Shown in pieces: positions 17,666-41,001 of a stretch of 41,001 nucleotides of DNA. The first letter of the stretch is position 1. Every line of letters begins with the position of its first letter. The DNA comes from Nitrospirota bacterium. GTDB taxonomy: Bacteria > Nitrospirota > Nitrospiria > Nitrospirales > Nitrospiraceae. The stretch is from the NCBI GenBank assembly GCA_020027965.1, contig JAHRHE010000010.1:1-41001 (forward strand), given 5' to 3'. The position numbers were made by a program, and so were the translations under genes. Below the pieces are notes generated by a model, which was not told the DNA's origin, ran no database searches, and saw only the letters and a list, made by a program, of their open reading frames with translations.

Positions 17666-17722
17666 CGTGTCTCCTCCTTCTTCTTAAGCCAATTGCGAGC
17701 AGCTCTTACCTCTTCGCTGCAC

Positions 17723-18958: not shown

Positions 18959-18964
18959 CGCCGC

Positions 18965-19789
18965 TCACCCCCTTTCCCGGATGATGACTTTGCCCTGATA
19001 GCGGAGATCGATGTCGCCATGGCTCATCTCTCGGCCGCCGCTCGCGCGGACGGCCCGTTCCACCTGTTGATAGCGGCGCCATTGCTCCTCAACGGAGGAG
19101 GGCGCAAAATGGAATCGCCGGCCTCTGACGGTGGCCACCTGTCTATCCGGACGACCCACATCCACCTCAGTCTGGCTCTGGAAGGCCGGGCCGAGCAGGG
19201 CGGCTACCTTGATCCCGCTCAGGGCTGCCTGGCGCGGACCAGCCTCCCCCAGCATGAGGCCGTGCGGATCGATTCCCACCAGCACCGGGAGCCCAGGCTC
19301 CGTTCCCTTCATCAGCACCGAGAGCACACGTCCTTCCTCATCCAGCAGCAGGCGGAACAGGGGCGTCTTGAGGACAGCCGCCGGGCGGCGTTCGGTGACC
19401 GACACCGTCAGGGTCCCGGGGAACCGTCGGCTCACCCTCGCCTCTTTGATCCAGGGATGGGACATCAGCTGGCTCACCAGCCGGGACGGAGTCAGCGAGA
19501 ACAGCGTTTCGCCGGGTCGGAGGGCCAACCGCTCCAGCACCTCCGCTCGCGTTACATGCCTGGCTCCGACCAGCGACACGTCCCGGACCTCAAACCAGTG
19601 GGCCACTAGGGGTCCACCCTCTTGATAGGCTTTCCACCCGGCGACACCGAGCGGGACCGCCAGCACCATCCAGGCCGCCCACACCAACAGTCGACGGGCT
19701 CCATGCCGCCTCGGCCGGCGCGCAGCGTAGATTGGCTGCCTTGGCAGATTGGGCCACATCCCGACGTGCAGAGTGCCCCAGCGCTTCAT
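18965..19789 (-). CDS. ftsQ: Cell division protein FtsQ
   Basis: The frame is open to 19987, but ATG 19789 overlaps the ddl stop as ATGA and has AGAGGAGG upstream. The 274-residue product has a basic cytoplasmic N-terminus, one membrane helix (about 33-52), a POTRA domain beginning FEVRDVSLVGARHVTRAEVL and a FtsQ beta domain ending near DIDLRYQGKVIIR. FtsQ links cytoplasmic Z-ring proteins to the periplasmic FtsL complex. Confidence 0.94.
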   Translation of the reverse strand: MKRWGTLHVGMWPNLPRQPIYAARRPRRHGARRLLVWAAWMVLAVPLGVAGWKAYQEGGPLVAHWFEVRDVSLVGARHVTRAEVLERLALRPGETLFSLTPSRLVSQLMSHPWIKEARVSRRFPGTLTVSVTERRPAAVLKTPLFRLLLDEEGRVLSVLMKGTEPGLPVLVGIDPHGLMLGEAGPRQAALSGIKVAALLGPAFQSQTEVDVGRPDRQVATVRGRRFHFAPSSVEEQWRRYQQVERAVRASGGREMSHGDIDLRYQGKVIIRERG

Positions 19790-20733: not shown

Positions 20734-20736
20734 ACC

Positions 20737-20822
20737 CGTCGCTCGTATCTCGTCGCTCGTATCTCGTCGCTCGTATCTCGTCGATTCCTTACGAGATACG
20801 CTTCACGAGGGACGCTTCACGT
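20737..20822. repeat. Tandem 14-bp repeat and hairpin between murB and ddl
   Basis: The unit CGTCGCTCGTATCT occurs three times in tandem without mismatch (20737-20750, 20751-20764, 20765-20778). CGTATCTCGT (20772-20781) then pairs perfectly with ACGAGATACG (20791-20800) over a nine-base loop. GCTTCACG words follow. The whole lies within the 92-base gap. Confidence 0.8.
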
Positions 20823-20825
20823 CCT

Positions 20826-21755
20826 TTATGGTTGTCCCACGATCTTCAGCTCCAGCTCCAGCGTGACCCCGGTCTGTTCTTCCACGGTCCGTCCGACTTT
20901 CTTGATCAGCGCGATCACATCGGCTGCCCGGGCGTGCCCCCGGTTCACGATGAAGTTGGCGTGCTTGTCCGACACCTGGGCGTCACCGATTTGCGCGCCC
21001 TTGAGACCTACGGCTTCGATGAGTTGCCCGGCCGCCCCCGCCGCCGGATTCTTGAACACGCACCCCGCACTGGGAAGGGTCAAGGGTTGGGTCTCCTTCC
21101 GATACCGCAGATAGTCTTTCACCACGTGCTGGAGCTTCTCCCGGGACGCCGGCTTGAGCTGAAGCCAGACCCCCACGACAATGCCGCGCGGCAGGAGTGC
21201 CCGACGGTAGCTGAACGGGATGTCCGAGGCCTGGCAGTCTTGAATGGCTCCCGTCGGTTCCACCACACGAACTGCCTTGACAGAGTCCTTCATTTCACCC
21301 AGGCGCGTGCCGGCGTTCATGACCACACACCCGGCCACGGTGCCCGGGATGCCCGCGGCCCACTCGAGCCCGCCCAATGACCGGCTGATCGCATGCCGCA
21401 TGAGCGTGGGCATCCCAACTCCGCCCTCGGCATAGATCACCCCATGCGGTTCGTCCCGGATGGCTGTTAGCTTGGCGAGACTGACCACGATGCCACGGAT
21501 GCCTCCATCGCGTACCAGGAGGTTGGTGCCCCCGATCACAAAGATCGGGATTTTGGCGGTCCGCGCCTGACGAACCAGTCTGGAGAGATCCGCGACGTCC
21601 GCCGGGATGACGAGCGCGTCGGCCGGTCCCCCGATCCGGAACGACGTGAAGTCGCTCAGGGGTGCGTCGAACTGGACCTCTCCCTGGATCCCCGACACCA
21701 CCTCGCGCAACTCGCGCGCCCCGACCCGTCGTGTCTCGCCGCGGCCGTTTCGCAT
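20826..21755 (-). CDS. murB: UDP-N-acetylenolpyruvoylglucosamine reductase
   Basis: The 309-residue frame chosen starts at ATG 21755, with GGGAGGCAGG immediately upstream; the frame is open to 21908. FAD-binding motifs include TSFRIGGPADALV, FVIGGTNLLVRDGG and GLEWAAGIPGTVAGCVVMNAG. The catalytic segment reads PSAGCVFKNP, with Cys where E. coli MurB has Ser; this variant is common in the family. It reduces the enolpyruvyl group to UDP-MurNAc using NADPH. MurA is not in the window. Confidence 0.95.
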   Translation of the reverse strand: MRNGRGETRRVGARELREVVSGIQGEVQFDAPLSDFTSFRIGGPADALVIPADVADLSRLVRQARTAKIPIFVIGGTNLLVRDGGIRGIVVSLAKLTAIRDEPHGVIYAEGGVGMPTLMRHAISRSLGGLEWAAGIPGTVAGCVVMNAGTRLGEMKDSVKAVRVVEPTGAIQDCQASDIPFSYRRALLPRGIVVGVWLQLKPASREKLQHVVKDYLRYRKETQPLTLPSAGCVFKNPAAGAAGQLIEAVGLKGAQIGDAQVSDKHANFIVNRGHARAADVIALIKKVGRTVEEQTGVTLELELKIVGQP

Positions 21756-21781
21756 CCTGCCTCCCAGGCCTGATGTCGCGC

Positions 21782-23161
21782 TTACAACCGATCCAATAAG
21801 TCGAGCCCGGCCTTCCAGATATCGCCGGCTCCCAGCGTGATGACCAGATCTCCGCTCCTCAGCGAGGGCAGGACCCGCTCCGCTAGGGCCTCCTTCCGGT
21901 CCACCCACGTCACCGCCGGGTGGCCGGCCGCCCGAATCGCGTCACACAGCTTCTCCCCCGACACCCCGGGAATCTCCGCCTCGCCGGCCGGATAAATCTC
22001 GGTCACGAACAAGGCGTCGGCCTGATCGAAAGCGCGGGCGAAGTCATCCGCGAGGTCGCGTGTGCGCGTGTAGCGATGAGGTTGGAACAGCACTACCAGC
22101 CGCCTGTTCCATCCCTGCTTCGCCGCCAGGAGCGTGGCGCGAATCTCTGTCGGATGATGCCCGTAGTCGTCGACGACCATGATCCCGCCCTTCTCCCCGC
22201 GGAGGTGGAATCGACGCTCCACGCCCGTGAACGCCGCGAGACCTTTCCGGATCAAATCGACGGGCACCTCCAGTTCCAGACCGACCGCGATCGCGGCCAG
22301 CGCGTTGGAGACGTTGTGGACGCCGGGCGTGGAGAGACGGAAGGGGCCCAGGTTCTTCCCTCGAAAGTAGGCCCGAAATTCGCTTTCCCACTTCCTGAGG
22401 GCGATCTCGCCGGCTCGGAAGTCGGGTGGCGGAGATCCGGCTTGTTCCTGCAGTCCATATGTCTGGTAGCGTTTGATGACCTGTCCGAGCATCTTCCGGA
22501 TGTACTCGTCATCAGCACACAGCACGGCCAACCCGTAGAAGGGGATGCGGTTGATGAACTCCAGAAAACTTTCCTGCAGTCGTTCCATCGTCCCGTAGTG
22601 ATCCAGGTGCTCGCGGTCGATGTTCGTCACCGCGACGATGGCCGGGGACAGCCGCAGAAATGACCCGTCGCTCTCATCGGCTTCCGCCACCAACAAATCG
22701 CCGCGCCCGAGACGGGCGTGGCTTCCGAGGGCATTGACCTTGCCGCCGATCACGATGGTCGGATCAAGCCCCCCCTCCGCCAGGACCGCCGCCACCATGG
22801 AGGTGGTCGTGGTCTTGCCGTGGGCCCCCGCAATGGCGACCCCGTACTTCAGACGCATCAACTCGGCCAGCATTTCCGCGCGGGGGATGACCGGGATAAC
22901 CTTGGCGTGAGCCGCCACTACTTCCGGATTGGATGCCGGCACAGCCGATGAGACTACCACCACCTGCGCATCGCCCACGTTGGACTCGTGATGTCCGATG
23001 AAGATGCGTCCGCCCAGCTCCTCCAGGCGCCGGACCGTCTCTGAGCGATGTTGGTCGGAGCCGGTGACCTTGTAGCCGAGCGTGAGCAGGACTTCAGCGA
23101 TGCCGCTCATCCCGGCTCCACCGATGCCGACGAGATGGATATGCTGAATCTTTCTAAACAT
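21782..23161 (-). CDS. murC: UDP-N-acetylmuramate--L-alanine ligase
   Basis: The protein has 459 residues. N-terminal [17 protein letters not shown] is the UDP-binding loop, GAHGKTTTT (112-120) the ATP loop, with DESDGSFL and [13 protein letters not shown] in the central domain and [14 protein letters not shown] in the C-terminal domain. It adds the first residue, L-Ala, to UDP-MurNAc. It has no strong ribosome site and begins next to an ACGAGATACG-type repeat, where the downstream half of the dcw run is separated from murG. Confidence 0.96.
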
Positions 23162-23167
23162 CGCAAA

Positions 23168-23277
23168 CCGTCATTCGTAAAGCGTGAAGCGTATCTCGTG
23201 CGGCATCGCTCCAATCTCCCATCTCGTATCTCGTGAAGAGTCTGACAAGATACCCTTCACGAACGACGAGATACGAA
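23168..23277. repeat. Long hairpin of the ACGAGATACG family between murG and murC
   Basis: TCGTATCTCGT (23224-23234) pairs with ACGAGATACGA (23266-23276) over 11 bases. The nested CGTGAAG (23232-23238) pairs with CTTCACG (23255-23261). GAAGCGTATCTCGTG near 23187 is a further copy. The element fills nearly the whole 116-base gap. Confidence 0.78.
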
Positions 23278-24414
23278 TTACGCCTCTCGCCTGGCGAGAG
23301 CGAGGCACTCGCCCACGATCACCTCGGCGGAATCGGTTCGCCCGATCGCCCGGCTCCGCGTCCCCATGGCAGCCAAGCGGGAAGCATCGCGCAGGAGCGC
23401 GGTAATCTCCCCGGCCAGCCGAGGGCCGGTCAGTTGATCCTGCAGCAGCAGCACCGCGGCGCCCGCTGAGGCCAGGACCTGCGCGTTCCGCTCCTGGTGG
23501 CCGTAGATCGCGGACGGTAGCGGAATCAGGATGGCCGGCTTTCCGCAAGCCGTGAGTTCCGCAATGGTCACTGCCCCGGCGCGTGCCACCACCAGATCCG
23601 CCGACCGCAAGGCTCTCGGCATATCGAACAGGAAAGGAACGACCTCCGCCCGGTCGTGCCCGATCCCGGCCTTGTCGTAAGCCGCCTTGACGCGTGCATA
23701 ATCTGCTTCACCGGTCTGATGGATGACGGCGAGCCCGTTGTCCCCGACTTTTCCTTGAAGATGAGGCAACGCCTCCACCATCGCATTGTTGATGGCTCGC
23801 GCGCCCTGACTCCCGCCGAACACCAGCAGGGTCAGTCTTTGACCCGCTTGCCCTCTCTTGGACAAGGTCGGCGGAGCCGCCCCTCCGGCCTGGGCCGCCG
23901 TCGGCTCGAAAAATGCCCGCCGAACCGGCGTCCCGGCCAGTCGGACTTTCGATGACCCAAAGTGGGATCCGGCCGAAGCGAAGGCGACGAACACCAGATT
24001 CGCCAGTGGCCCGAGCGCCTGGTTGGCCATGCCCGGGACCGCATTCGGCTCCAGGATCACCCGGGGAATACCCAGTAGCCACGCCGCCATCAGCACAGGC
24101 GGGCTGGTATACCCGCCGACCCCGATCACGAGGTCCGCGCGCCGTCCTCGCAGAACCTTGACTGACTGCCAGCACGCCACCGGGAGGTGCAGCAGCGCGC
24201 CCGCGGCCCTTGCCAGTCCGCGCCCCATCACCGGACGTGCCGCGACCCGCTCGAGCACGAAGCCTTCTTGCGAAAGCACTGTCCCCTCGAGCCCGCGCTG
24301 GGTGCCGACGAACACGATGGACGTGTCCGGCTCCCGATGCAGGAACTCTCGCGCCAGGGCCACTGCCGGATACAGGTGCCCCCCCGTGCCTCCGGCGGCG
24401 ATCACGACCGTCAT
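23278..24414 (-). CDS. murG: UDP-GlcNAc:undecaprenyl-PP-MurNAc-pentapeptide transferase
   Basis: The true start is ATG 24414, overlapping the ftsW stop as ATGA; the frame stays open far upstream through ftsW by chance. The 378-residue product has the GGTGGHLYPAVALA loop at the N-terminus, VIGVGGYTSPPVLMAAWLLG, LEPNAVPGMANQAL, LLVFGGSQGARAIN and VVARAGAVTIAELTACGKP. It transfers GlcNAc to lipid I, forming lipid II at the inner face of the membrane. Confidence 0.96.
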   Translation of the reverse strand: MTVVIAAGGTGGHLYPAVALAREFLHREPDTSIVFVGTQRGLEGTVLSQEGFVLERVAARPVMGRGLARAAGALLHLPVACWQSVKVLRGRRADLVIGVGGYTSPPVLMAAWLLGIPRVILEPNAVPGMANQALGPLANLVFVAFASAGSHFGSSKVRLAGTPVRRAFFEPTAAQAGGAAPPTLSKRGQAGQRLTLLVFGGSQGARAINNAMVEALPHLQGKVGDNGLAVIHQTGEADYARVKAAYDKAGIGHDRAEVVPFLFDMPRALRSADLVVARAGAVTIAELTACGKPAILIPLPSAIYGHQERNAQVLASAGAAVLLLQDQLTGPRLAGEITALLRDASRLAAMGTRSRAIGRTDSAEVIVGECLALARREA

Positions 24415-25613
24415 CGTGCGGCCACCCAACTGGCGAACCCACCGGCCCGCCGCCCGCCTTGTCGGTCGCGCGAGATGCTCAATAGTATGCCGATCCCCAC
24501 GAGGCTCACGAGGAGTGATGACCCGCCGTAGCTCATCAGCGGCAAGGTCAATCCTTTGGTCGGCAGCAGGCCGGTGACAACACCGGCGTTGATTAACACC
24601 TGGAGCCCGAGCAAGAGTGTAATGCCGAGGGCCAAATACCGTCCGAACGGCTCCCGCGCGCGTCCGGCGATCTGGAATCCCTTGAACACCAGGATCATGA
24701 ACAACACCATGACGAACGCAGTCCCCAGCAACCCGAGTTCCTCGCCGACCAGCGCCAGCATGAAATCCGTATGCCCCTCCGGCAGGAAGAACAGCTTCTG
24801 CTTGCTCTCCCCCAGCCCGATCCCGAACAAGCCACCGCTGCCGAACGCCAGAAAGGACTGCGTCATCTGAAAGCCGGCATCTGTGGGATCCTTCCAGGGA
24901 TCCACGAACGTCATCAGGCGTTGCCAGCGGTAGGGTGAGGTCCGTACCAGGGCGAACAGCAGCGCCAAGCCGGACAGAACCAATCCAGTGAGGTGCCTGA
25001 GCCGAGCCCCGCCCAGGAACAGCAGGCCCATCGTGACCAGCCCGATCACGACCGCCGTCCCCAGATCCGGTTGCCACAAGACCAGGCCTCCGAGCAGTCC
25101 ACTCACGATCAGCGGCGGGAGCAAGCCCGCGATCCACTCCGTCACCCGCTCCTCTTTCTTGGCCAAGTAGGCCGCCAGGTACACAACCACCACAAGTTTG
25201 ACGAACTCGGCCGGCTGCACGGACAGCGGGCCGACCCGAAGCCAGCGCCGCGCGCCCTTGACCGCGACGCCGATCGACGGAACCAGCACCAGGATCAGCA
25301 GCATGGCCGAACAGGCCACCATCGGCAGCGCCATCCTTCGCCAGACGGTGTAATCGAGACGCGAGGCGACGTGCAGCAGCAGAAACCCGAATGCCAGCCA
25401 CGCGAGCTGGCGTTTGAGAAAGTACAACGGGTCGTGGAAACGATTCCCGGCGACCACCGCGCTCGCACTGAACACCATCACGAGCCCGAGCAGGGCGAGG
25501 ACCATGGCGACCAGCAGCACACTGGCGTCGGGTCCCATCCGCTGGTGTGCCGGACTGGCCGAGGTCGGCCACGGAAGTCCCAAGGTTCCCGCGTCGCTCC
25601 CGCTGCGTGACAT
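24411..25613 (-). CDS. ftsW: SEDS glycosyltransferase FtsW
   Basis: The protein has 400 residues with about ten membrane helices. Signature segments are VKGARRWLRVGPLSVQPAEF, LPEGHTDFMLALVGEELG and GLLPTKGLTLPLMSYGGSS. FtsW polymerises lipid II at the septum together with the transpeptidase FtsI. The ATG has GAGGAG seven bases upstream. It overlaps murG at the 3' end, placing lipid II synthesis and use in one coupled block. Confidence 0.96.
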   Translation of the reverse strand: MSRSGSDAGTLGLPWPTSASPAHQRMGPDASVLLVAMVLALLGLVMVFSASAVVAGNRFHDPLYFLKRQLAWLAFGFLLLHVASRLDYTVWRRMALPMVACSAMLLILVLVPSIGVAVKGARRWLRVGPLSVQPAEFVKLVVVVYLAAYLAKKEERVTEWIAGLLPPLIVSGLLGGLVLWQPDLGTAVVIGLVTMGLLFLGGARLRHLTGLVLSGLALLFALVRTSPYRWQRLMTFVDPWKDPTDAGFQMTQSFLAFGSGGLFGIGLGESKQKLFFLPEGHTDFMLALVGEELGLLGTAFVMVLFMILVFKGFQIAGRAREPFGRYLALGITLLLGLQVLINAGVVTGLLPTKGLTLPLMSYGGSSLLVSLVGIGILLSISRDRQGGRRAGGFASWVAAR

Positions 25614-25654
25614 TCATCCGCTCCTCATCCGCCCCGTGCCTCGGGCCCTCATTC

Positions 25655-27067
25655 TTATGGCAGCGCCTGCACCAGTGCCTTGAACTGCCGGCCCCGGTCC
25701 TGGTAGTCGGCAAACATGTCGAAACTGGCACAAGCGGGCGACAGGAGCACCACATCACCAGTCTCGGCGTTCCGGACCGCCAGGTCTACCGCCTCGCGAA
25801 GGGTCGCGGCCTGGCTGATCCGATCGAAATCGCCCAGCGCTTCCCGAATGCGCGACGCCGCTTCGCCGATGAGGATCAGCCGTTTCACCCGCTTCCGCAC
25901 GGGCTCACGCAGTCGACTGAACTGGCCGCCCTTGTCGCGTCCGCCGGCGATCAGGAGGACCGGCCCGTCGAGACTTTCCAGGGCCTTGATCGTGGCGTCG
26001 ACATTGGTGCCTTTGGAGTCGTTCACGAACCGGACTCCCTGCCGATCCCGCACGATCTCCAGCGCGTGCTCAAGACCTGGGAAGCTCCGGAGGACCCGGC
26101 TCATAACCTCGCTGGGACACCCGCAGAGAACCCCGACTGCCAGCGCGGCCATCGCGTTCGCCAGGTTGTGATTGCCCGGCGCTCGAATCTCCTCCCGGCG
26201 GCAGATGGCGGTCCGGTGTCCGTCGATGGTCGCCACGATGCGATCCTGATCCAGGTACACTCCCTCAAGCGCTTCTTGTTCGAGGGTTCGGGTGCGGCTG
26301 AAGCCCAGCACCCTTGCGCGCAATCCGGAACGCAGTGCTCCCACCCGCTCGTCGTCCAGGTTCAACAGCGCCACATCTCGCGCGGTCTGATTCTCGAAGA
26401 TCCTGGCCTTGGCCGCCGCGTACGACTCTACCGAGGGGTACCGATCCAGATGGTCCGGTGTGATGTTCAGCACCGCTGCGACCCAGGGGCGAAATCGCTG
26501 GATGGTCTCGAGCTGAAAGCTGGAGACCTCCGAGACAATATAGTCATAGCGTAAGGAGGCGGGTCCTCCCGGTCCTCCCCCAGCCTGGTACGTCATCAGG
26601 GCCGCTTCGGAAAGCGCGGTGCCGAGATTCCCTCCCACGAAAACCCGTTTGCCGCTCTGCTCCAGCAGCAGCCCGACCAGCGTCACCGTAGTGCTTTTCC
26701 CGTTCGTCCCGGTAATCGCGATCACGGGCGCCCTCAGAAACCAGGACGCGAGCTCCAGCTCCCCGATCACCGGGATGCCTCGTCGGCGCACCCGGTTCAG
26801 CGCATCCAGACCCGAAGGCACACCGGGACTGATCACCACCAGGTCGGCTCCCTCCAACGCCGAGTCGTACCCTGCCCCCACCGCGACCGTCACATGCCGC
26901 CGATCCACACGCGACAGCGTGTCCGCAAGCCCGGCCTCTTCCTTGGCGTCCGCCACCGTGACCCGCGCCCCGACCGCCTGAAGCAAGCGCATCGCCGCGA
27001 CTCCACTTCTGGCCAGTCCGACGACTGTCACCTTCTTGTCCCTGAGCTCCACCCCTGACGATGACAT
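25655..27067 (-). CDS. murD: UDP-N-acetylmuramoylalanine--D-glutamate ligase
   Basis: The protein has 470 residues. [17 protein letters not shown] is the UDP-binding part, [14 protein letters not shown] (about 117-130) the ATP loop, [19 protein letters not shown] the central helix and [19 protein letters not shown] the Mur-ligase C-terminal part. It adds D-Glu to UDP-MurNAc-L-Ala. An alternative GTG start five codons in (VELRDKK) is possible. It is separated from mraY by a 124-bp inverted-repeat element. Confidence 0.95.
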
Positions 27068-27088
27068 AACTCAATGCTCGCACCCCTT

Positions 27089-27212
27089 CAGGACGCTCAA
27101 AATGGCTTTCCAACGAGGCCGCAGGAAGCGAGGGCCCCGAGGCGTACTGTACAAGTACGTTGAGGGGGCAGAGCGACCGAGAACAAAGTTGGGAGCCATT
27201 TTCAGCTTCCTG
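27089..27212. repeat. 124-bp structured inverted-repeat element between mraY and murD
   Basis: The left arm 27089-27114 (CAGGACGCTCAAAATGGC and on) is an imperfect reverse complement of the right arm 27188-27212 (GTTGGGAGCCATTTTCAGC and on). The core contains the near-palindrome GTACTGTACAAGTAC. It begins three bases after the mraY stop codon. A related CAGGATGTTGAACAAGG word directly follows the asnS stop. I recall similar elements from Nitrospira-type genomes, but cannot verify this here. Confidence 0.7.
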
Positions 27213-27215
27213 ACA

Positions 27216-28292
27216 CTAGCGTATCTTCAGGGTGCTTAAACTCAACAGCGCCAGCAGGATGGCAAGGATCCAGAGCCGGACGACCACCTTCGGTTCCTCC
27301 CACCCTTTGAGCTCGAAATGGTGGTGGATCGGCGCCATCAGGAAAATCCGCTTCCCCCTCGATTTGAAGGAGGCGACCTGGAAGATGACGGAGATCGCCT
27401 CGATCACGAACACTCCACCCACCAGGAGCAGCAGCAACTCGTGTTTGCTGACCACGGCGACCGTGCCCAACGCGGCGCCCAGGGGCAGGGAGCCGACATC
27501 CCCCATGAACACCGAGGCTGGGTAGGTGTTGAACCAGAGGAATCCCAGGCTGGACCCGAAGATGGCCGCGGTGAACACCGCTAATTCGCCTGCTCCTTCG
27601 ATATAGGGGATGAGCAGATATTCCGACATGATCTTGTTCCCGACCACGTAGGCCACGATGGTATAGGCAAGGGCCGCGATCATCACCGGCCCCACCGCCA
27701 GCCCATCGAGGCCATCCGTCAGGTTCACCGCGTTCGAGCTCCCGACGATCACCAGGATCGCAAAGGGAATGTAGAAGAGTCCGAGATCGGGCGTGATATG
27801 TTTGAAGAACGGCACGTTCAAGTGCGTCGAATAGCCCGGTGAAAAATAAAAGAACAGGCCGATCCCCAAAGCCAGGACGGCCTGGGCGAGCATCTTCTGG
27901 AGGACGGAAAGGCCCTTTGAATGGCCCTTGATAAACTTGATGTAGTCATCCACAAACCCCACCAGACCGAACCCGACCGTGGCGAAGATCACGAGCCACA
28001 CGTACCGATTCGCCACATTGGCCCACAGCACCGTGGACAGGACGACTGCGAACAGGATCAGGATCCCGCCCATGGTCGGGGTACCGGTCTTGGCCTGATG
28101 CCGCTGTGGGCCATCCTCCCGAACACGTTGTCCCAGCCGGATCTCCTGCAGCTTCCGGATGACCAGCGGGGCGAGCACGAACGCGATCAGAAACGCCGTG
28201 ACCGCCGCATAGATGATGCGGAAGCTCAGGTACCGAAACACGTTCAGGAAGGAGAACTCCGTATGGAGGGGATACAGCCAGAGATAGAGCAT
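27216..28292 (-). CDS. mraY: Phospho-N-acetylmuramoyl-pentapeptide transferase
   Basis: The protein has 358 residues and about ten membrane helices. [27 protein letters not shown] with catalytic Asp115-Asp116, [16 protein letters not shown] and the loop [14 protein letters not shown] are the complete MraY signature. It makes lipid I from UDP-MurNAc-pentapeptide and undecaprenyl phosphate. The ATG has AAGGTAG a few bases upstream. AT-rich palindromic DNA separates it from murF. Confidence 0.97.
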
Positions 28293-28302
28293 GGGCTACC
28301 TT

Positions 28303-28335
28303 AATTTCGAATTTCGAATTTCGAAATTCGAATTT
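28303..28335. repeat. TTCGAA/AATT palindromic repeat between mraY and murF
   Basis: A run of AATTTCGAATTTCG words contains a perfect 20-base palindrome, TTCGAATTTCGAAATTCGAA (28313-28332). It is sharply AT-rich against its surroundings and lies just before the mraY ribosome site. Confidence 0.75.
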
Positions 28336-28373
28336 GCGGCTTTAGGGTTGAACTCATAACCAGAAACCGAGAA

Positions 28374-29819
28374 CTACACACTTTTTCGTCGTCCTGTTGT
28401 GAGCGGCTCTATGACCCGTTCCATCTTCATTCCACGGGACGCTTTCACCAGGACCACGTCGCCAGCCTGAACGGCGGTGTGGAGCTGGACGCCTGCCGCG
28501 ACCGCGTCGGGCGCTTCGCGCACGCTTCCAGCCGCCATGCCGGCGGCGCGAGCCCCGGCTGCCAGCTCACGACCCAACACCCCGCAGGCAATCAACTGCG
28601 ACACGCCGCGGCCCGCAAGGTAGGCACCCACGTCCCGATGAAGGGCGACCGCCTCGGGCCCGAGTTCCAGCATATCGCCCAGCACGGCGATGGTTCGTCG
28701 GCCCATCCCGAGTTCGGCCAACAGGTCAATGGCGGCCTTCATCGAGGCGGGATTGGCGTTGTAGCAATCGTTGATGACCCTGACCCCGCTCCAAGTGAAC
28801 ACCTGCGACCGCATGGCCGCCGGCCGGAAGCGCGCCAATCCACGGACGATCCCGACCGCACTCACCCCGAGGAGGTGGCCGACCGCCGCGGCCGCCAAGG
28901 CGTTGGACACATTGTGGATGCCGTGCACCCGCAGAAAGGCGCGCTCGCCACGCGCTCGGCCCGGAAGGCTCAGCCGGAACGCCGTCCCACGGCTCGAGTC
29001 CGTGAGGACCTCGGTGGCCCGGACCTGTGCGCGCGGTGACAATCCGAAGGAAAGCACCCGGCACCGTGCCCGAGAGGCCAGGTACTCGTAGTAGGCATCA
29101 TCCGCATTGAGGACGGCCGCCCCATCCGGCGGAAGCAGATCCAGCAGCTCCCCCTTCGCCTGGGCGGAGGCCTCCAGGCTTCCGAAAAACTCGAGGTGGT
29201 CGGGACCGATATTGGTAATCAGACCGATGGTGGGCGCGGCGATCTCGCCGAGGCGGGTGGTCTGGCCCTTCTGGTCCACGCCCATTTCCACGACCGCCGC
29301 CTCATGACGCGAGGTCAATCGGAGCAAGGTCTGGGGAACTCCGATGCGGTTGTTCAGGTTTCCCTCGCTCTCCAGCACGCGCCAACGCTGCGCTAGCACC
29401 TCCGCCACCATATCCTTGGTCGTGGTCTTGCCGTTACTGCCCGTCACCGCCACGATCGGAATGTCGAACCGGCGCCGGTGGTGAGCCGCCATCTGCTGAT
29501 ATGCCAGAAGAGGATCGGGCACTCCCAAGAGGATGGACGCGGCCAGACCGGGACGGCGGCCTGTTCGCTTCTCAAGAGGTGTCGGCCGGAATCGGTCCTG
29601 CACGACCGCGCCGACCGCCCCGGATCGAAAGGCCGCCTCCACAAACTGGTGGCCGTCGAAGTGCTCACCCTTCAAGGCCACGAAGAGGTCGCCGGCGCGG
29701 ACCCGGCGCGAATCCGTACACAGACGCCGGATTCCGATCCGCCGCCCATTCACCGATCGACCGGACACCACGTGGGCGTTGGTGATCTCCAAGACCTCCT
29801 CGACGGTAAAGAGCGACAT
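28374..29819 (-). CDS. murF: UDP-N-acetylmuramoyl-tripeptide--D-Ala-D-Ala ligase
   Basis: The protein has 481 residues. TDSRRVRAGDLFVALKG is the N-terminal UDP-binding part, GSNGKTTTKDM (from 127) the ATP loop, EMGVDQKGQTTRL and ITNIGPDHLEFFGS the central domain, and INDCYNANPASMKAAIDLL the C-terminal domain. It adds D-Ala-D-Ala from Ddl. No strong ribosome site is seen at the ATG, which follows the repeat-filled gap after murE. Confidence 0.95.
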   Translation of the reverse strand: MSLFTVEEVLEITNAHVVSGRSVNGRRIGIRRLCTDSRRVRAGDLFVALKGEHFDGHQFVEAAFRSGAVGAVVQDRFRPTPLEKRTGRRPGLAASILLGVPDPLLAYQQMAAHHRRRFDIPIVAVTGSNGKTTTKDMVAEVLAQRWRVLESEGNLNNRIGVPQTLLRLTSRHEAAVVEMGVDQKGQTTRLGEIAAPTIGLITNIGPDHLEFFGSLEASAQAKGELLDLLPPDGAAVLNADDAYYEYLASRARCRVLSFGLSPRAQVRATEVLTDSSRGTAFRLSLPGRARGERAFLRVHGIHNVSNALAAAAVGHLLGVSAVGIVRGLARFRPAAMRSQVFTWSGVRVINDCYNANPASMKAAIDLLAELGMGRRTIAVLGDMLELGPEAVALHRDVGAYLAGRGVSQLIACGVLGRELAAGARAAGMAAGSVREAPDAVAAGVQLHTAVQAGDVVLVKASRGMKMERVIEPLTTGRRKSV

Positions 29820-29837
29820 AAATTAATGCAGCAACCA

Positions 29838-29940
29838 GCACATAGCTGGAAGCGAGTAGCCGAAAGCCGGGAGAGATCCACGGCCTTCTCTTGCTGCTCG
29901 CTGCTCGTTCCTCGCTACTGGCTATGGGCTACGCGCTGGA
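29838..29940. repeat. AGCGAGTAGC/GCTACTGGCT repeat overlapping the murE 3' end
   Basis: AGCGAGTAGCC (near 29851) and CTCGCTACTGGCTATGGGCT (29911-29930) form distant inverted words around CTGCTCGCTGCTCG. The repeat supplies the last codons and TAG stop of murE (GTA GCC CAT AGC CAG TAG). The same AGCCAGTAGCCCATAGC string occurs at 11530-11546 in the other orientation relative to its gene group. Confidence 0.6.
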
Positions 29941-31414
29941 GTATCTCCAGCGCTATTTCGCGGTCGTCGAAATGGATCCGGGTGCTGCCGAGGATCTGAT
30001 AATCTTCATGGCCCTTCCCGGCCAGGAGCACCATATCCCCGCGCTTCGCCTCCCGGATCGCCGCTTCGATCGCCTGTCTCCGATCGGCGATCACCTGATA
30101 CCGCACCCGGGCCGGATCGAGCCCCGCGCGAACCCCGGCCTCCACCTCCCGGAGAATCGCCATCGGGTCCTCGGTGCGCGGGTTGTCTGAAGTCAGAATC
30201 ACCACATCGCTCTGCTCCGCGGCCACGCGCCCCATCTTGGGCCGCTTGCCCCGATCGCGATCGCCGCCACATCCGAAGACAGTGATGATTCGGCCGGTTT
30301 TCAGGGCGCGTGCAGCCGCGAGCAGGCGCGCGAGCGCGTCTTCGGTGTGGGCATAGTCCACAATCACGCTGAAGTCCTGCCCGGCCTCCACCCGCTCAAA
30401 CCGTCCCGGTATCGTAGTCACCGCGAGGAGGCCCTGTCGGATCGTGTCCGGGGACAGCCCTTCCTGCAGCCCCACCCCGATTGCCGCCAGGATGTTATAG
30501 ACGTTGTGTTCCCCCACCAGCCGGCTTTCGACTTGAAACCCGCCGGCCGGCGTCACCGCCGTGAACGTCGTTCCCGAGATCGAGAGGCGGACATCCTGAG
30601 CCTGGATGTCGGATCGATGCTTCACGGAATAGGTCCACACCGGGACGGTGGTGGCGCTGCAGACGCGAGCCCCCCTGGCGTCATCCAGATTGACAATGGC
30701 GCGCTTGGGCCCGGTTTTGACGCCGGGGTCTGCCAGGCCGGCGAACAGGCGCAGTTTGGCCAGGAAGTAGTCTTCCATGTCGGCATGGAAATCCAGGTGG
30801 TCCTGCGTCAGGTTCGTGAACACCGCCACATCGAATTCGCAGCCAGCCGTGCGGTCCAGGGCAAGGGCGTGCGATGATGCCTCCACCACGGCGTAGTCGA
30901 GCCCATCCTCAACCATTCTGGCCAGCAATGCCTGAAGCTCGACAGCTCCGGGAGTCGTATGGGCCGCGGCGAGCTGCCGCGAGCCGATCTGGTACGCCAC
31001 CGTGCCGATGAGCCCAGCCCGCCGCCCACCTGCTTCCAGGACGCCCTTGCACAAATAGGTGACGGTGGTCTTCCCATTCGTCCCCGTGATTCCGATCAAC
31101 CTGAGACGGGCGGAGGGGTCGTGGTGGAGCCGGCTGGCGAGCAAGCCCAATGCCCGCCGCGAATCCCGCACGCGGATCACGGGAACCGCCGCTGGTCCCT
31201 TCGGCCACGGCTCCTGGATCACCAATGCGGAGGCCCCCGCGGCCAGGGCCTGCCGCACATACGCATGCCCGTCGACCTGGTAGCCTTTGACGGCCACGAA
31301 TACGCTGCCCGGTTTCACGCGGCGGGAATCATCGGTCACATCGGAGACTCCGACGTCCAGGTTCCCGTTCACCTCCGGCGCCTCCAGCGGAGCAATGAGC
31401 TGGGCCAAGGTCAT
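29915..31414 (-). CDS. murE: UDP-MurNAc-tripeptide synthetase (meso-diaminopimelate adding)
   Basis: ATG 31414 overlaps the ftsI stop as ATGA; the frame is open further to 31561. The 499-residue product has TDDSRRVKPGSVFVAVKG, the ATP loop GTNGKTTVTYL (from 111), VEASSHALAL and the C-terminal SDNPRTEDP. The DNPR motif marks meso-diaminopimelate specificity, so this organism should have DAP-type peptidoglycan. The last residues VAHSQ come from repeat DNA. Confidence 0.96.
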   Translation of the reverse strand: MTLAQLIAPLEAPEVNGNLDVGVSDVTDDSRRVKPGSVFVAVKGYQVDGHAYVRQALAAGASALVIQEPWPKGPAAVPVIRVRDSRRALGLLASRLHHDPSARLRLIGITGTNGKTTVTYLCKGVLEAGGRRAGLIGTVAYQIGSRQLAAAHTTPGAVELQALLARMVEDGLDYAVVEASSHALALDRTAGCEFDVAVFTNLTQDHLDFHADMEDYFLAKLRLFAGLADPGVKTGPKRAIVNLDDARGARVCSATTVPVWTYSVKHRSDIQAQDVRLSISGTTFTAVTPAGGFQVESRLVGEHNVYNILAAIGVGLQEGLSPDTIRQGLLAVTTIPGRFERVEAGQDFSVIVDYAHTEDALARLLAAARALKTGRIITVFGCGGDRDRGKRPKMGRVAAEQSDVVILTSDNPRTEDPMAILREVEAGVRAGLDPARVRYQVIADRRQAIEAAIREAKRGDMVLLAGKGHEDYQILGSTRIHFDDREIALEILQRVAHSQ

Positions 31415-33165
31415 GGGCCCGCCCGACCCGCGCGGCGAACCCCGATCGATTCGCCTTCTGCCAAGGCCACGCGCACCGGTGCCTGGGAAGTCACCCCAAG
31501 GTAGGGGAGCACTTGTTCGGCCACCCGCCGGAACACCGGGGCGGCCACGACCCCTCCCCACGCCTCTGTCTGTGGCTCATCGATCACGACCAGGATGCAC
31601 AGCCGGGGGTCCTCGGCCGGGACAAAGCCGACAAACGATCCAATGAACAGTGTCGTCGAATAGGTCCCGGTTCTCGGGTCCACCTTCTGCGCCGTCCCTG
31701 TCTTGCCGGCGACCCGGTAGCCGGAGACCGCCGCACTCTTCCCCGTTCCGCGACTCACCGCGCCTTCCAGGATCCGGGTCAGCTTCTGCGCCGTTCCCTC
31801 TGAGATCGGCTGGCGCCGCACCTGCGGGGACGCCTGGTACACCGCCTTCCCCTTCCCGTCGCGGATCTCGGCTACCACATGGGGCTTCATCAGCCATCCG
31901 CCGTTGGCTACGGCCGACAGCGCGGTCGCGAGCTGGACGGCAGTTACCCCGATCTCCTGCCCCATCGCGATCGAGGCCAGCGACCGCCGCCCCCAGCTGC
32001 GGGAATCCCTGACGAGCCCGGCGGCCTCACCTGGCAGGTCGATCTCGCTCCGCTCCCCGAATCCGAAGGCTCGGAGGACGCGAGACAGTCGGTCGGGACC
32101 CAGGGCGAGGGCGGTCTTCACTGCTCCGATGTTACTGGAACGTTCGAGCACCTGAGCGAAGGTCATCCATCCGGAGGGGTCGTGGTCATGGACCACGGTA
32201 TTCGCGACGGTCATGCTGCCGCGTTCGCCGAAGAGAATGGTCTGCGGCTCCATCACCTTGTCCTCCAGCGCGGCGGCGGCGACGAGTACTTTGAGGGTGG
32301 ATCCGGGCTCATAGACATCCGTGACCGCCCGATTGCGCCACCGGTCGGCATACAGGGAGCCAAGGGAATTCGGGTCGAAGGTGGGAACCAAGGCCATCGC
32401 CAGGACCGCGCCGGTGCGAGGCTCCATGACAATGATCGTCCCGCCCTTGGCGCGGGAGGCCGCGACCGCTTCCTCGAGCTCTTTCTCCGCAATATACTGG
32501 ATGGTCTCGTCGATCGTCAGCGTCACGCTGTGCCCGGACGACGGGCCTTGTTCCGTGAAGCCTTTCGGAAAGACGCTCCGGCCCAGGGCATCGCGCTGCA
32601 GCACCACCATCTGCTTCTCTCCGCGCAGATAGGAATCGTACCGATGCTCGATGCCTTCCAAGCCGTCCCCATCCATCCCGGCGAATCCGATCACGTGCGA
32701 GAGCAAGGTTCCCTTGGGATAGTACCGACGCCCTTCCAGGACCAGGCCGATGCCCTCGAGCGGTCTCCGCTGCAGACGCCGCCCCTGTTCCGGGTCCACC
32801 TTCCGCGCGATCCAGACGAAGCTTCGTTCCTGTTTAAGTTTCTTCTCGATCTCGTCGGGCCGAACGTGCAAGACCCGGCCGAGCTCACGGGCGACCGGCG
32901 TGGGATCTTCGAGCGAGGTGGGGACGCCGAAGACCGACGGCACCTCGAGATTGATTGCCAGCACTTTTCCGCGGCGATCATAGATCGTCCCGCGCCCTCC
33001 CTGGAGCGTGATGGCCTTCTCATGTTGTCGTTCGGCCTTGAGCGTCAGTTCCCCTGCCTGCAGGACCTGCAGGTTGAACAGTCGGAACAGGACGATGACA
33101 AACCCTGCCAGCAAGAGCAAGGCTGCGACGATCCGCCGGACGCGCAAGGGGTCCACGACGGTCAT
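31411..33165 (-). CDS. ftsI: Septal transpeptidase FtsI (class B PBP)
   Basis: The protein has 584 residues. It has one membrane helix (about 10-32), a pedestal domain with GGRGTIYDRRGKVLAINL, and a transpeptidase domain with EPGSTLK (nucleophile Ser289, Lys292), SSN (343-345) and KTGT (488-491). The usual EPGSTFK has Leu for Phe. No C-terminal PASTA domain is present. FtsI cross-links septal peptidoglycan with FtsW. It overlaps ftsL at the 5' end (33162-33165) and murE at the 3' end. Confidence 0.96.
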   Translation of the reverse strand: MTVVDPLRVRRIVAALLLLAGFVIVLFRLFNLQVLQAGELTLKAERQHEKAITLQGGRGTIYDRRGKVLAINLEVPSVFGVPTSLEDPTPVARELGRVLHVRPDEIEKKLKQERSFVWIARKVDPEQGRRLQRRPLEGIGLVLEGRRYYPKGTLLSHVIGFAGMDGDGLEGIEHRYDSYLRGEKQMVVLQRDALGRSVFPKGFTEQGPSSGHSVTLTIDETIQYIAEKELEEAVAASRAKGGTIIVMEPRTGAVLAMALVPTFDPNSLGSLYADRWRNRAVTDVYEPGSTLKVLVAAAALEDKVMEPQTILFGERGSMTVANTVVHDHDPSGWMTFAQVLERSSNIGAVKTALALGPDRLSRVLRAFGFGERSEIDLPGEAAGLVRDSRSWGRRSLASIAMGQEIGVTAVQLATALSAVANGGWLMKPHVVAEIRDGKGKAVYQASPQVRRQPISEGTAQKLTRILEGAVSRGTGKSAAVSGYRVAGKTGTAQKVDPRTGTYSTTLFIGSFVGFVPAEDPRLCILVVIDEPQTEAWGGVVAAPVFRRVAEQVLPYLGVTSQAPVRVALAEGESIGVRRAGRAGP

Positions 33166-33503
33166 GGAGTCCTCAACCCCGGCTCGCGGGGACCATGGCT
33201 GGCCAACCTGACTTCCGGTCGACCGGGCTTCCGATCAGAGGGCGCATCGGGCTCCAGCCTGACGAGGATCACCTGACCCTGGCGCGCCGGGACCATCCCG
33301 AGCCGGTCGGTCGCGGCCCGCTCGATCCGCTCCGGCGACGTCAACTTCGACACCGTGACACGCAGTTCGTCATGCTCACGCTGAAACGCGACCTTCTTCA
33401 ACTTGAGCCGTTCAACGTGGTACCCCACCCGTACGACGTCCACCCGTTCGCCGACATACAGCAGCAGGAGGGACATCACCGCCATGGCAGCGAGGATTTT
33501 CAT
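33162..33503 (-). CDS. ftsL: Cell division protein FtsL
   Basis: The protein has 113 residues. A membrane helix (about 3-18) is followed by a leucine-zipper-like helix (RLKLKKVAFQREHDELRVTV) and the conserved SPERIERAATDRLGMVPA region. FtsL sits with FtsQ in the divisome core and activates FtsWI. Assignment rests on this pattern and on position between rsmH and ftsI. The C-terminal tail of about 30 residues is Arg/Pro-rich and longer than usual. Confidence 0.88.
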   Translation of the reverse strand: MKILAAMAVMSLLLLYVGERVDVVRVGYHVERLKLKKVAFQREHDELRVTVSKLTSPERIERAATDRLGMVPARQGQVILVRLEPDAPSDRKPGRPEVRLASHGPREPGLRTP

Positions 33504-34411
33504 GGGAGCCTCCCTTCCGGCATCCGCTCGGCCACGCGCAGCTTGGCGCTGCGGGCGCGTGGATTCGTGCGGAGCTCCTCCTCAGAGGGGCGCACCGGCT
33601 TCTTCGTGAGCGCCGACAGGCACGCGCCCGGTCCGTGGGACAACGCACGAAGTGTTTGTTTCGCAATTCTGTCCTCCAGGGAGTGAAAGGAGATGACGCA
33701 GAGCCGCCCCCCCGGCGCCAGCACCCGCGTGGCATCCCGAAGCGAATCTGCCAGCGAATCCAGCTCGCCATTGACCGCGATCCTTAGGGCCTGAAAGGTC
33801 CTCGTGGCACAGTGCAGCCGTCCATGCCGGTACGAAGAAGGAACCGCGTCCCGAATCACCCCCACCAGTTCAAAGGTGGTGCGTAACGAGCCACGCACCC
33901 TGGCCCGGACCACGGCCCGTGCGATCCGACGGGCATAGCGTTCTTCCCCATACCGGTACAGCATGTCCGCCAGTTCCGGCTCGGCAAGCTGGTTCACAAG
34001 CTCCGCGGCTGTTTGACCGGATCGCTGATCCATACGCATATCCAGCGGGCCGTCGGCTGAGAAGCTGAATCCCCGTGTCGGGCAGCCGAGCTGCGCCGAG
34101 GACACGCCCAGATCGAACAGCACGCCGTCAACCTCCGAGACACCAACCGTGTGCAGATGGTGCACAAGCTCACTGAAATGACCGTAAAGGAGCGTGGCCC
34201 GTGCACCAAACTCCTTGAGGCGCTCACGGGCGACCCCTAGCGCGGCTTCGTCGCGATCAACCCCGATCAGAATCCCGTCCGGCCTGGAGAGATCCAGGAT
34301 TCGCCAGGCATGTCCACCTCCCCCGACCGTGCAGTCGAGGTACCGGCCTCCCGGACGGCACGATAACCATCGGCACACCTCATCGAGGAGCACCGGCTTG
34401 TGGATATACAA
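33500..34411 (-). CDS. rsmH: 16S rRNA (cytosine-1402-N4)-methyltransferase RsmH
   Basis: SAM-binding YLDCTVGGGGHAWRIL, VLFDLGVSSAQL and FSADGPLDMRMD are typical; the C-terminus has VISFHSLEDRIAKQTLR. An ATG at 34474 opens the frame, but it overlaps the promoter -10 (34471-34466), so the transcript begins downstream of it. A TTG at 34411 gives MYIHKPVLLDEV, the usual family N-terminus, and a 303-residue protein; a GTG at 34444 is a second option. Neither has a clear ribosome site. It is the first gene of the dcw run and overlaps ftsL by ATGA at 33500-33503. Confidence 0.9.
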   Translation of the reverse strand: MYIHKPVLLDEVCRWLSCRPGGRYLDCTVGGGGHAWRILDLSRPDGILIGVDRDEAALGVARERLKEFGARATLLYGHFSELVHHLHTVGVSEVDGVLFDLGVSSAQLGCPTRGFSFSADGPLDMRMDQRSGQTAAELVNQLAEPELADMLYRYGEERYARRIARAVVRARVRGSLRTTFELVGVIRDAVPSSYRHGRLHCATRTFQALRIAVNGELDSLADSLRDATRVLAPGGRLCVISFHSLEDRIAKQTLRALSHGPGACLSALTKKPVRPSEEELRTNPRARSAKLRVAERMPEGRLP

Positions 34412-34420
34412 GTTATTGAT

Positions 34421-34454
34421 TTCACTATTCCCACTAGATTCCACTTTTTCCCAC
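34421..34454 (-). promoter_or_regulatory. Three to four MraZ-type operator boxes upstream of rsmH
   Basis: On the minus strand GTGGGAA (34454-34448), GTGGAA (34444-34439) and GTGGGAA (34434-34428) are spaced exactly 10 bases start to start, with a degenerate GTGAAA at 34425. MraZ, the dcw repressor, binds tandem TGGGA/GTGG repeats at about one helical turn. The boxes lie just downstream of the transcription start, where bound repressor would block elongation or initiation. Confidence 0.72.
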
Positions 34455-34465
34455 TTAATGGCAAA

Positions 34466-34493
34466 AGTATACATTTCACCCAGGGATTGTCAA
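34466..34493 (-). promoter_or_regulatory. Sigma-70 promoter of the dcw cluster
   Basis: TTGACA (34493-34488), a 16-base spacer and TATACT (34471-34466) on the minus strand form a near-consensus promoter. The start of transcription should lie near 34459, directly before the MraZ-type boxes. Confidence 0.78.
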
Positions 34494-34816: not shown

Positions 34817-36109
34817 CTACGGATAGAGTTTGTAGAGCATCCTGGGGAAGGCAATCGTTTCCCGCACGTGATCCAGGCCGCAGATCCAGGCCACCGCCCG
34901 CTCGATTCCCATTCCGAACCCGGCGTGGGGGACGGACCCGTACCGTCGGAGATCGAGATACCACCGGAACGCTTCTTCGGGCAGTTTATGCTCCCGGATC
35001 CGCGCGAGCAATTGCTCGTGGTCGTGCATCCGCTGACCGCCCCCGATAATTTCTCCGTAGCCCTCAGGCGCCAGCACATCCATGCACAGGGCCAGGTCCG
35101 GCCGGGACGGATCAGTCTGCATATAAAAGGCTTTGATCGCCGCGGGATACCGATGCACGATGACCGGCCGGTCGAATTCGCTTGAGAGCAGCGTTTCTTC
35201 ATCCCCGCCAAAATCATCGCCTCGCTGGATGGGGTTCCCCTTCTTCTGGAGCAGGGCGATCGCCTCCTCATAGGTGATGCGTGGAAAGGGCGGCACGACC
35301 CGCTCGAGCTTGGAGAGGTCGCGCTCCAGGACGGCCAGGTCGTTCCGGCTTGTCTTGAGCACATGCCCGACAATGAAGCTGAGGAACCCTTCGGCCAGGT
35401 CTATCATGTCGGGCAGTTCGGCGAAGGCGACCTCCGGCTCCACCATCCAGAATTCCATGAGGTGCCGCCGTGTCTTGGATTTCTCGGCACGAAAGGTCGG
35501 CCCGAAGCAATAGACCTTTCCGAAGGCGGCCGCCGTGGCTTCACTGTACAGCTGTCCGCTCTGGGTCAGAAAGGCCGTCTCATCGAAATACTGGGTCTGA
35601 AACAGGGTGGTGGTCCCCTCGCAGGCATTGGGAGTAAAGATGGGAGTATCCACGAGCACGAAGCCGCGGTCATCGAAGAAGCTGCGGCAGGCCCGGATGA
35701 TCTCGTGGCGGATGCGTAAGATGGCATGCTGGCGGCTGGACCGGAGCCACAGGTGGCGGTGCTCCATCAGGAACCCCACCCCGTGCTCCTTCGGCTGGAT
35801 CGGGAACGGCTCGGCGAGCTGCACTGGCTCAACCCGCGTGACATCCAGCTCGAAGCCGCCCGGCGCGCGCGCTTCCTGCCTGACTTTCCCGGTCAGAATC
35901 AAGGACGACTCCTGGGTCAAGGCGGCCGATTGCGCAAACTGCTCCTCGCCCACCGTGCCCTTGCTGACCACGGCCTGGAGATCACCGGTCCCGTCACGGA
36001 CGACCAGAAAATGGATCTTCCCGCTCGACCGCCGGTGGCGGAGCCACCCGCGGATCGTGACTTCCTCGCCGACGTGGCGAGCGATGTCCTCGATGTACGC
36101 AACAGGCAT
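34817..36109 (-). CDS. asnS: Asparaginyl-tRNA synthetase
   Basis: The protein has 430 residues. An OB-fold anticodon-binding domain (about 1-105; [20 protein letters not shown]) precedes the class II catalytic core with [53 protein letters not shown] and a motif 3 [16 protein letters not shown]. It charges tRNA-Asn with asparagine. The AsnRS form is indicated by [20 protein letters not shown] and the EFWMVEPE segment. A possible promoter is TTGAAA (36191-36186), 17 bases from TAGGCT (36168-36163), but the -10 is poor. Confidence 0.94.
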
Positions 36110-38910: not shown

Positions 38911-39921
38911 CTATTTGATGCGAAAGGTCTTGGTCACCAAGGATCCTTCCCGCCGGATGTCCACGCGCACGTCTGACTGTGTCGGGTTCCTGGCGACGAC
39001 CTCCTGATACGCCCACCAGGCATTCAGCGGGCTGGTCACCGGGTTGTTATTGATGCGGAGGACCGTATCCCCCACCTGGATCCCGAAGAATTGAGCTGCC
39101 CGGCTATTCGTGACGATGAACCCGCTTTCATTGAGCATCCCATCGGCGACCGCGGACGACACGTTAAACCCGACGCCGGACTGCGCGGAGACTGTGGGCG
39201 AAATCATCAGCTTCAGGTCCGACAGGACCTGGCCCAGATTCTCAAGGGCGGGACGCAGCGCGGCTCCGTCCATCTCATAGGTATTGGCGTCGATCTCCTT
39301 TGCGTGGAGCAGGGCGGACAGCGTCGGGCTCGGAGTCATCGCGATCCCGGGAAGGGGACGGGAACCCTCAGGGGTTGAGGTCGCTTGATTGGGGCCGCCG
39401 GCCTGACGAAGGACTTCCTTCTCCAGGACCGCCACGGGACCGTCCAGGGCGACGAGCACCGGCTCCAGTTGAGTCACGCGCTCGACGGTTCGGTACCGAT
39501 ACCGCAACTGCTTCAGCATCACGGTTCCGGCCAACGTGAGGCCTCGGAGGCCTTCGAAAGAGGTACCGGATTGCCAGATGAGGGTTCGGCCCGTGCGCTT
39601 CTCGCGCATGGTCACCGTCCGGACCTCAACTTGCAGTACGGTGAACGATCGCATGAGATCCCGCGGATCGAACAGGACGTCGTTGCGGGTGTGCAGCGTC
39701 CGCATCTGACCCGGCTCATGCAGGATGATGGCGTATCGGGTCGGCGCCGAAAGAGTCATCTCCGCAGCGACATCCTTTGAGGCCGGGGCAGGATCCTGAC
39801 CTCGAATAGGCTGGCCGGCGCCATACACGTCGAGGGCGGTCGATGTCAGAGTTAGACCCGCGAGGAGGAGCGCGCAGCCCACGCGATCCCATCGGTGTCG
39901 TGAACTGGACGGTGATCTCAT
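38911..39921 (-). CDS. Exported GspC-like PDZ protein
   Basis: The 336-residue frame starts at ATG 39921, overlapping the upstream gene as ATGA and preceded by AAAGGA. A signal peptide or anchor lies at about 13-35. The middle has an unassigned beta-rich domain (about 58-170). A later segment, [20 protein letters not shown] to [12 protein letters not shown], resembles the pilot part of GspC, and a PDZ-like domain (about 250-332; [16 protein letters not shown]) ends the protein. GspC is a type II secretion component, but no other gsp gene is adjacent, so secretion function is uncertain. Co-translation with the SBBP protein suggests a joint envelope role. Confidence 0.78.
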
Positions 39922-41001
39922 GTGTGTGTCCTTTCTCTTAAGCCGTAATCCCGCCGCCGGGCCCTCAGGACAAAGAACAGAGTGACCGAACCCGCCAATA
40001 GACCGCCTCCGAAGCACACCAGCGCGACAAACGGTGAGGTATTGGCGAGAGAGGCCGCCGAAACCACCGGTCGCAAGGCGAACCGCGTAGCGGCTCGCAG
40101 TGGCTCACGGCCTGCAATCGCGCGGGCCACCGGCGGACTGAGCCGATAGTACGCCGCCACGAAGACCCGCCCCGGACCATTCGTGATGAGGTATCGGTCA
40201 CGGAACTCCCGGAGCACCCGCACTTCCTTTGCCAACGGCGACCCGTAGGCAGCCGTGGCGATGAAGCAGACGCCACCGCTGCCACCGCTGCTCCCTCCGC
40301 CCCCGCCGCTGGATGACATCGGAGCGATCTTGGAAACAAAGGCATCTATCGCGCTATTCTGGGACGACTGGACGACCGCCGGCGTGGTCGGAAAATTGGT
40401 GGAGCCCGTGCTGCCCGTCACGTAGGCATTGGCCGAGGTGTCGAGGGCGAGGCTGTTGCCCACGTCGGTGCCGTTGCCTCCCAGGAAAGTGGAGTAGACG
40501 AGTGGTGCCGTGCCGGTCGGATTCACCTTCGTGACAAAAATATCGCCAAGGCCAAGGCCCCCTGAAGGAGTTGGAAGGGCATCGGTGGTCGTTGGAAAGT
40601 CAGTCGACGTGGTGTTGCCCGTCACATACGCATTTGACGAAGTATCGATCGCGAGGGCGTTGCCGACATCAGTACCATTGCCTCCTAGGTAAGTAGAGTA
40701 GACCAGCGGTGCCGTGCCGGTGGGGTTCACTTTCGTGACAAAAACGTCCCCTAACGGAGTGGAGCTGATCTGAAAGACCCCCGGGGTTGTGGGAAAGTTG
40801 GTCGACCCGGTCGAGCCCGTTACAAAGGCATTCCCGGTGGCGTCCACCACGATCGCGTTGCCGACGTCCGCACCGTCACCCCCCAGATAGGTGGAATAGG
40901 CCAGCGCCGTGCCACTGGCATTCAGCTTCGTCACGAAGGCGTCTTGCGGCCCTTCCAGCGCGCAGTCAAAAGCCGTGCACGGGGCCGTGGGAAAGGTCGG
41001 A
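39918..41001 (-). CDS. SBBP-repeat beta-propeller protein with CFI-box C-terminus (partial)
   Basis: The frame is open from the right edge (first full codon at 41000), so the N-terminus is missing; the GTG at 40934 is only an internal codon. About 360 residues are in the window. Three to four SBBP repeats are seen, with [34 protein letters not shown] and [18 protein letters not shown] Ser/Gly-rich linker leads to [25 protein letters not shown] and [10 protein letters not shown], the CFI-box C-terminal domain, then a membrane helix and a basic tail. That layout suggests sorting or anchoring of a surface protein. It overlaps the GspC-like gene by four bases. Confidence 0.87.

Follow-up and report, generated by a model that had tools for sequence, protein, structure and literature searches.

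A predicted MraZ operator on the dcw promoter is separated from mraZ across the order that holds Nitrospira

MraZ, together with its own operator ahead of the dcw cluster, forms a regulatory unit whose conservation is among the highest in bacteria, and the purpose of its autoregulation is unclear. A 41,001-nucleotide stretch of DNA from a Nitrospirota bacterium (hereafter the window) raises the question of what acts at such an operator when mraZ is not beside it: the dcw promoter in the window carries MraZ-type boxes, and the first gene behind them is rsmH. A sequence-only reading of the window had left two options, namely that mraZ has moved elsewhere in the genome or that an unrelated regulator uses the site. 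This genome stands alone in its genus. We compared it with its order mates in families f1 to f4, which make up the order that holds Nitrospira (including N. moscoviensis and Ca. N. defluvii), and with other families of the class and phylum. The relevant features, all on the minus strand of the window, are given below.

34488–34493, minus: −35 hexamer TTGACA, read directly; the sole sigma-70-like match nearby
34466–34471, minus: −10 hexamer TATACT, read directly, with a spacer of 16 nt
34449–34454, minus: MraZ-type box 1, GTGGGA, 11 nt after TATACT; lies within a 27-bp site that scores 26.5 bits
34439–34444, minus: MraZ-type box 2, GTGGAA; its own GTG is in frame with rsmH
34429–34434, minus: MraZ-type box 3, GTGGGA, read directly and from the triple-box scan
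34420–34425, minus: weak, degenerate fourth box, GTGAAA, at a pitch of 9, read directly
33500–34444, minus: rsmH (mraW), first gene of the cluster (TIGR00006, 337 bits; PF01795); start at GTG 34444 or TTG 34411
33162–33503, minus: ftsL-like gene, assigned by position; its DivIC-type match of 21.8 bits is under the Pfam cut-off of 28.9
31411–33165, minus: ftsI-type penicillin-binding protein, a class assignment only, its best equivalogs being under their own cut-offs
16475–31561, minus: remaining dcw cluster (murE, murF, mraY, murD, ftsW, murG, murC, murB, ddl, ftsQ, ftsA, ftsZ)
34817–36109, minus: asnS, the gene upstream of the operator (NF003037, 554.6 bits)

The promoter and boxes bear out the earlier description. 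TTGACA, 16 bases and TATACT are read on the minus strand from 34493 to 34466, and three boxes with the layout GTGGGA-N4-GTGGAA-N4-GTGGGA follow from 34454 to 34429 at a pitch of exactly 10 nt; the degenerate fourth box is also present, at a pitch of 9 rather than 10. The promoter is the single sigma-70-like match in 1.5 kb, agreeing at 11 of 12 positions (shuffles gave a mean of 0.3). The triple-box pattern occurs once in the 41-kb window (shuffle mean 0.02), as does the promoter combined with two boxes, which was found in 0 of 100 shuffles with up to three mismatches permitted. A second three-box site in the same genome, at C225:4331, is G+C-rich, and a control pattern also gave one match, so we treated it as chance. 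GTGG(G) repeats at a 10-nt pitch and a position at the dcw promoter, 3′ of the −10 hexamer, are features of MraZ operators that this site shares. A third, mraZ as the first gene behind the operator, is found neither here nor elsewhere in the order, but it is a usual rather than a mechanistic feature of such operators. We take the window site to be a true MraZ operator of the dcw promoter, as predicted from its sequence.

The dcw cluster in the window is complete apart from mraZ. On the window contig no MraZ frame was found upstream of rsmH, where the next gene is asnS, in agreement with the earlier claim that mraZ is absent from this position. Farther upstream, a gene for an SBBP beta-propeller repeat protein (39918–40934, minus) overlaps a frame with a weak PDZ match (38911–40017).

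Where translation of rsmH begins bears on what the boxes could do. The 324-aa rsmH open reading frame opens at ATG 34474, but this codon shares bases with the −10 hexamer and cannot be where translation begins. Two in-frame starts are usable, GTG 34444, which belongs to box 2, and TTG 34411, so that the operator overlaps the transcript start, predicted near 34459, and probably the translation start as well. The GGGA of box 1 could serve as a Shine-Dalgarno sequence for GTG 34444. Box 2 gives an in-frame rsmH GTG in 24 of 62 order mates. In seven order mates (L053, L057, L059, L064, L088, L101, and L102), the box 2 GTG is the sole in-frame ATG, GTG, or TTG after the −10 hexamer, and operator and translation start therefore appear to be superimposed there. 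In one further genome, rsmH is seemingly split by a stop or a frame change (G130:C4:9325-10205).

Given that the boxes lie within the expected transcript and that box 2 so coincides with in-frame starts, the GTGGGA repeats might be an RNA-level feature, a repeated Shine-Dalgarno sequence or a leader element, rather than a DNA operator. We lend this reading very little credence: the fixed 10-nt pitch breaks the reading frame, the distances to the −10 hexamer and to the start codon vary, sister orders have arrays of the same kind before mraZ instead of rsmH, and an Rfam search of the rsmH leader returned no RNA family match.

We then asked how far the arrangement extends. Outside the order, rsmH is present in 57 of 58 sampled mraZ loci of the phylum, a box pair lies upstream of mraZ in 55 of these 58, and sister orders retain the boxes-mraZ-rsmH arrangement; inside the order, rsmH is present in 0 of 43 mraZ loci. 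We built a 27-bp weight matrix from 52 distinct mraZ-upstream operators, all from outside the order and hence independent of the window. Conservation of the boxes in related genomes had been named beforehand as one of two points on which the sequence-only reading could fail; they are kept in 61 of 64 order mates, where the matrix scores above the 99% shuffle level upstream of rsmH (median 23.8 bits, window 26.5, shuffle mean −7.9). The same matrix exceeds that level at only 1 of 41 order-mate mraZ upstreams. Across 2.48 Mb of mraZ neighborhoods (both strands counted), it gave one match above 14 bits; this match, of 20.9 bits in L190, is antisense within a coding frame and was therefore treated as chance.

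The details of the rsmH site were compared among 62 order mates. TTGACA is found in 60, TATACT in 50, and a spacer of 16 in all 62 (the finder permitted 15 to 18); the pitch from box 1 to box 2 is 10 in 60, and the distance from the −10 hexamer to box 1 varies, mostly between 6 and 13 nt. Across 60 genomes of the family, a strict triple-box pattern gave 16 matches, every one at rsmH (control pattern, 0), and the boxes accordingly resemble a DNA operator with a single target. Cultured N. defluvii has the operator site at rsmH and none at mraZ (L114). The separation of operator and mraZ is order-wide and ancient, not peculiar to this genome.

The HMM search of the full genome that the sequence-only reading had proposed found one MraZ gene (PF02381), a 155-aa frame with two PF02381 halves. 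It lies on contig C112 and the window on C248; in order mates where rsmH and mraZ share a contig, they are far apart, by 213 kb in G066 and about 342 kb in G028, for example. The neighborhood of the displaced gene is conserved and consists of divergent pyrD and ABC genes, comF, often fmdB, often an HTH_17 gene, mraZ, and then a RusA-like gene; on C112, the neighbors are pyrD, comF, fmdB, HTH_17, and the RusA-like gene. In much of the family, the HTH_17 gene, of the excisionase type and 64 aa long (L003:9873-10067, minus), immediately precedes the displaced mraZ, and the two may share a transcript. The RusA-like gene (L003:8776-9381, minus), whose Pfam match is just under the cut-off, follows mraZ in the order mates sampled. 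A TTGACA-type promoter match (at least 10 of 12 positions) is found upstream, without boxes, in about half of the sampled mraZ loci, and at many of these it lies ≈300 bp before mraZ, ahead of HTH_17. Of 41 order-mate mraZ genes, 40, including that of our genome, lack the upstream boxes that autoregulation would call for. With a single MraZ encoded on another contig, a split seen in all four sampled families, and boxes retained at rsmH, a gene that has moved elsewhere is strongly favored over an unrelated regulator.

The displaced protein belongs to the MraZ family by its PF02381 score (98.7 bits against a gathering cut-off of 23, in two stretches), whereas its TIGR00242 equivalog score of 89.9 bits is under the cut-off of 98.35. 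A D-x-x-G-R motif is present in both halves, and D11, K13, G14, R15, R23, D84, G87, R88, and R96 do not vary among 31 order mates and agree with the residues found in classical MraZ. The best matches of the AlphaFold model (pLDDT 90.9, pTM 0.83) are MraZ structures from M. pneumoniae and M. genitalium, among them the DNA-bound cryo-EM entries 9r4j and 9sz7, with query TM scores of 0.69 to 0.79 at a probability of 1.00, a predicted MraZ fold.

Could another regulator bind the boxes, such as the HTH_17 protein encoded beside mraZ or another AbrB-type protein, leaving the displaced MraZ-like protein with a different role? The protein is indeed very divergent and under the MraZ equivalog cut-off, HTH_17 is the immediate neighbor of mraZ in many genomes, and three genomes have mraZ yet degenerate boxes. 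The site nevertheless fits a matrix trained on classical MraZ operators, the displaced MraZ has invariant residues in its DNA-binding motifs, and many order mates with the boxes, G028, G040, and G115 among them, showed no HTH_17 at mraZ, all of which makes such a regulator unlikely in our judgment.

The three genomes, G064 (L092), G066 (L081), and G110 (L049), have degenerate boxes at rsmH with mraZ intact, and they offer natural cases on whether MraZ control of dcw was lost. Genome searches returned no mraZ match in four others, G109, G240, G248, and G252. In G109, the neighbors comF and RusA are missing as well, and comF in G248 is found at the end of a contig, so that an assembly gap is in both cases a likelier cause than true loss; G247, a congener of G109, has mraZ. 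G240 has comF with neither a RusA nor an mraZ match, and G252 is only 76% complete.

We consider it most probable (≈80%) that the operator-mraZ-rsmH unit has been split and that the displaced MraZ acts on dcw in trans, without autoregulation. This reading builds on observed features, namely the site, its conservation, the split locus, the lack of boxes at mraZ, the retained DNA-binding motifs, and the predicted MraZ fold. The operator and promoter would have stayed before rsmH, with the sole MraZ encoded elsewhere, usually behind HTH_17 or fmdB and without boxes. MraZ, presumably an oligomeric ring that presents one AbrB-like surface to each GTGG box, would bind the array on one face of the DNA just 3′ of the −10 hexamer and across the translation start. 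A ring so placed would lie over the early part of the transcribed region, where it could block initiation or escape; repression of rsmH and dcw in trans would follow, with activation the less likely outcome. Since mraZ lacks boxes, there should be no negative feedback, and dcw output should follow the level of MraZ supplied from another promoter.

Several comparisons point toward this split with action in trans. The site is beyond chance, the outside-order matrix recovers the rsmH sites and, with one exception, not mraZ, and the pitch stays fixed while the distance to the −10 hexamer varies. In Burkholderia cenocepacia, the MraZ site has four 7-nt repeats with 3-nt spacers, lies 3′ of the −10 hexamer, and overlaps the transcription start, and binding has been demonstrated (PMC7761207); the shared geometry suggests, by analogy, that MraZ could bind here too. 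Other evidence weighs against it. The TIGR00242 score and a very long branch mean that the specificity of MraZ could have changed, and G064, G066, and G110 keep mraZ despite their degenerate boxes. M. genitalium mraZ complements only in cis, and the authors of that study argue for a linkage requirement in repression (PMC8475190). Nor is repression certain: MraZ represses in M. genitalium and, as described in the same paper, in E. coli (PMC8475190), but it is an activator in N. elongata (PMC9395523).

The origin of the displaced gene is a separate matter. The displaced MraZ proteins all fall into a single clade (100/100), separated from all dcw MraZ of the phylum by a branch of more than 2 changes per site. 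With outgroups included, the clade joins MraZ of Bacillota and Actinomycetota (100/95) and not the phylum's dcw MraZ, and one clade with the dcw MraZ of the class is rejected (p-AU 0.026). The gene could have been relocated and then have changed fast, or a foreign gene could have replaced it; the displaced MraZ is so divergent that replacement may apply. We place roughly even odds on a laterally acquired MraZ having replaced the original dcw mraZ and taken over its old operator; against it, one clade with all MraZ of the phylum is not rejected (p-AU 0.224, from 148 columns only and with long branches), and faster change following the loss of linkage would give a similar picture. Replacement concerns origin and is compatible with an MraZ that functions in trans. 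A fuller scenario, in which the whole order lost its ancestral dcw-linked mraZ, a lateral, divergent MraZ took over the unchanged operator in trans, and a negative autoregulatory loop that is nearly universal gave way to open-loop control of cell division, another promoter determining the dosage of MraZ, is one that we put forward tentatively, as possible rather than probable.

Among open-access papers (most subscription journals being outside the scope of the search), we found none on mraZ relocation or on dcw control in Nitrospira. New here are the great age and order-wide reach of the separation, the retention of the operator at rsmH instead of mraZ, and the grouping of the displaced MraZ proteins in one divergent clade. 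A whole order, cultured nitrite oxidizers included, retains the operator apart from mraZ, and the cis-only complementation in M. genitalium makes such an order informative. If MraZ still binds the operator, the order would be a natural counter-example to the linkage requirement and a natural test of the role of feedback. The arrangement predicts a single-target regulator in organisms whose control of cell division is little studied, and it cautions that a lack of mraZ beside rsmH does not equal a lack of MraZ control.

Compared with the classical systems in which MraZ autoregulates dcw (E. coli, B. cenocepacia, M. genitalium, Listeria, and others), the site described here has the same GTGG boxes at a 10-nt pitch, 3′ of a sigma-70 −10 hexamer and ahead of dcw, and the same kind of MraZ-fold protein with two D-x-x-G-R motifs. 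It differs in that mraZ is distant and boxless instead of lying between the operator and rsmH, so that this site gives no autoregulation, and in that MraZ is highly divergent. The multicellular Neisseriaceae likewise have a dcw head without mraZ, but there the gene is gone from the genome (PMC9395523), whereas here it is kept elsewhere and the operator is conserved. Cyanobacteria, with their dispersed dcw genes, also depart from the standard gene order; they have no mraZ and a scattered cluster (PMC8871954), whereas in the window's order mraZ alone stands apart from an otherwise intact cluster.
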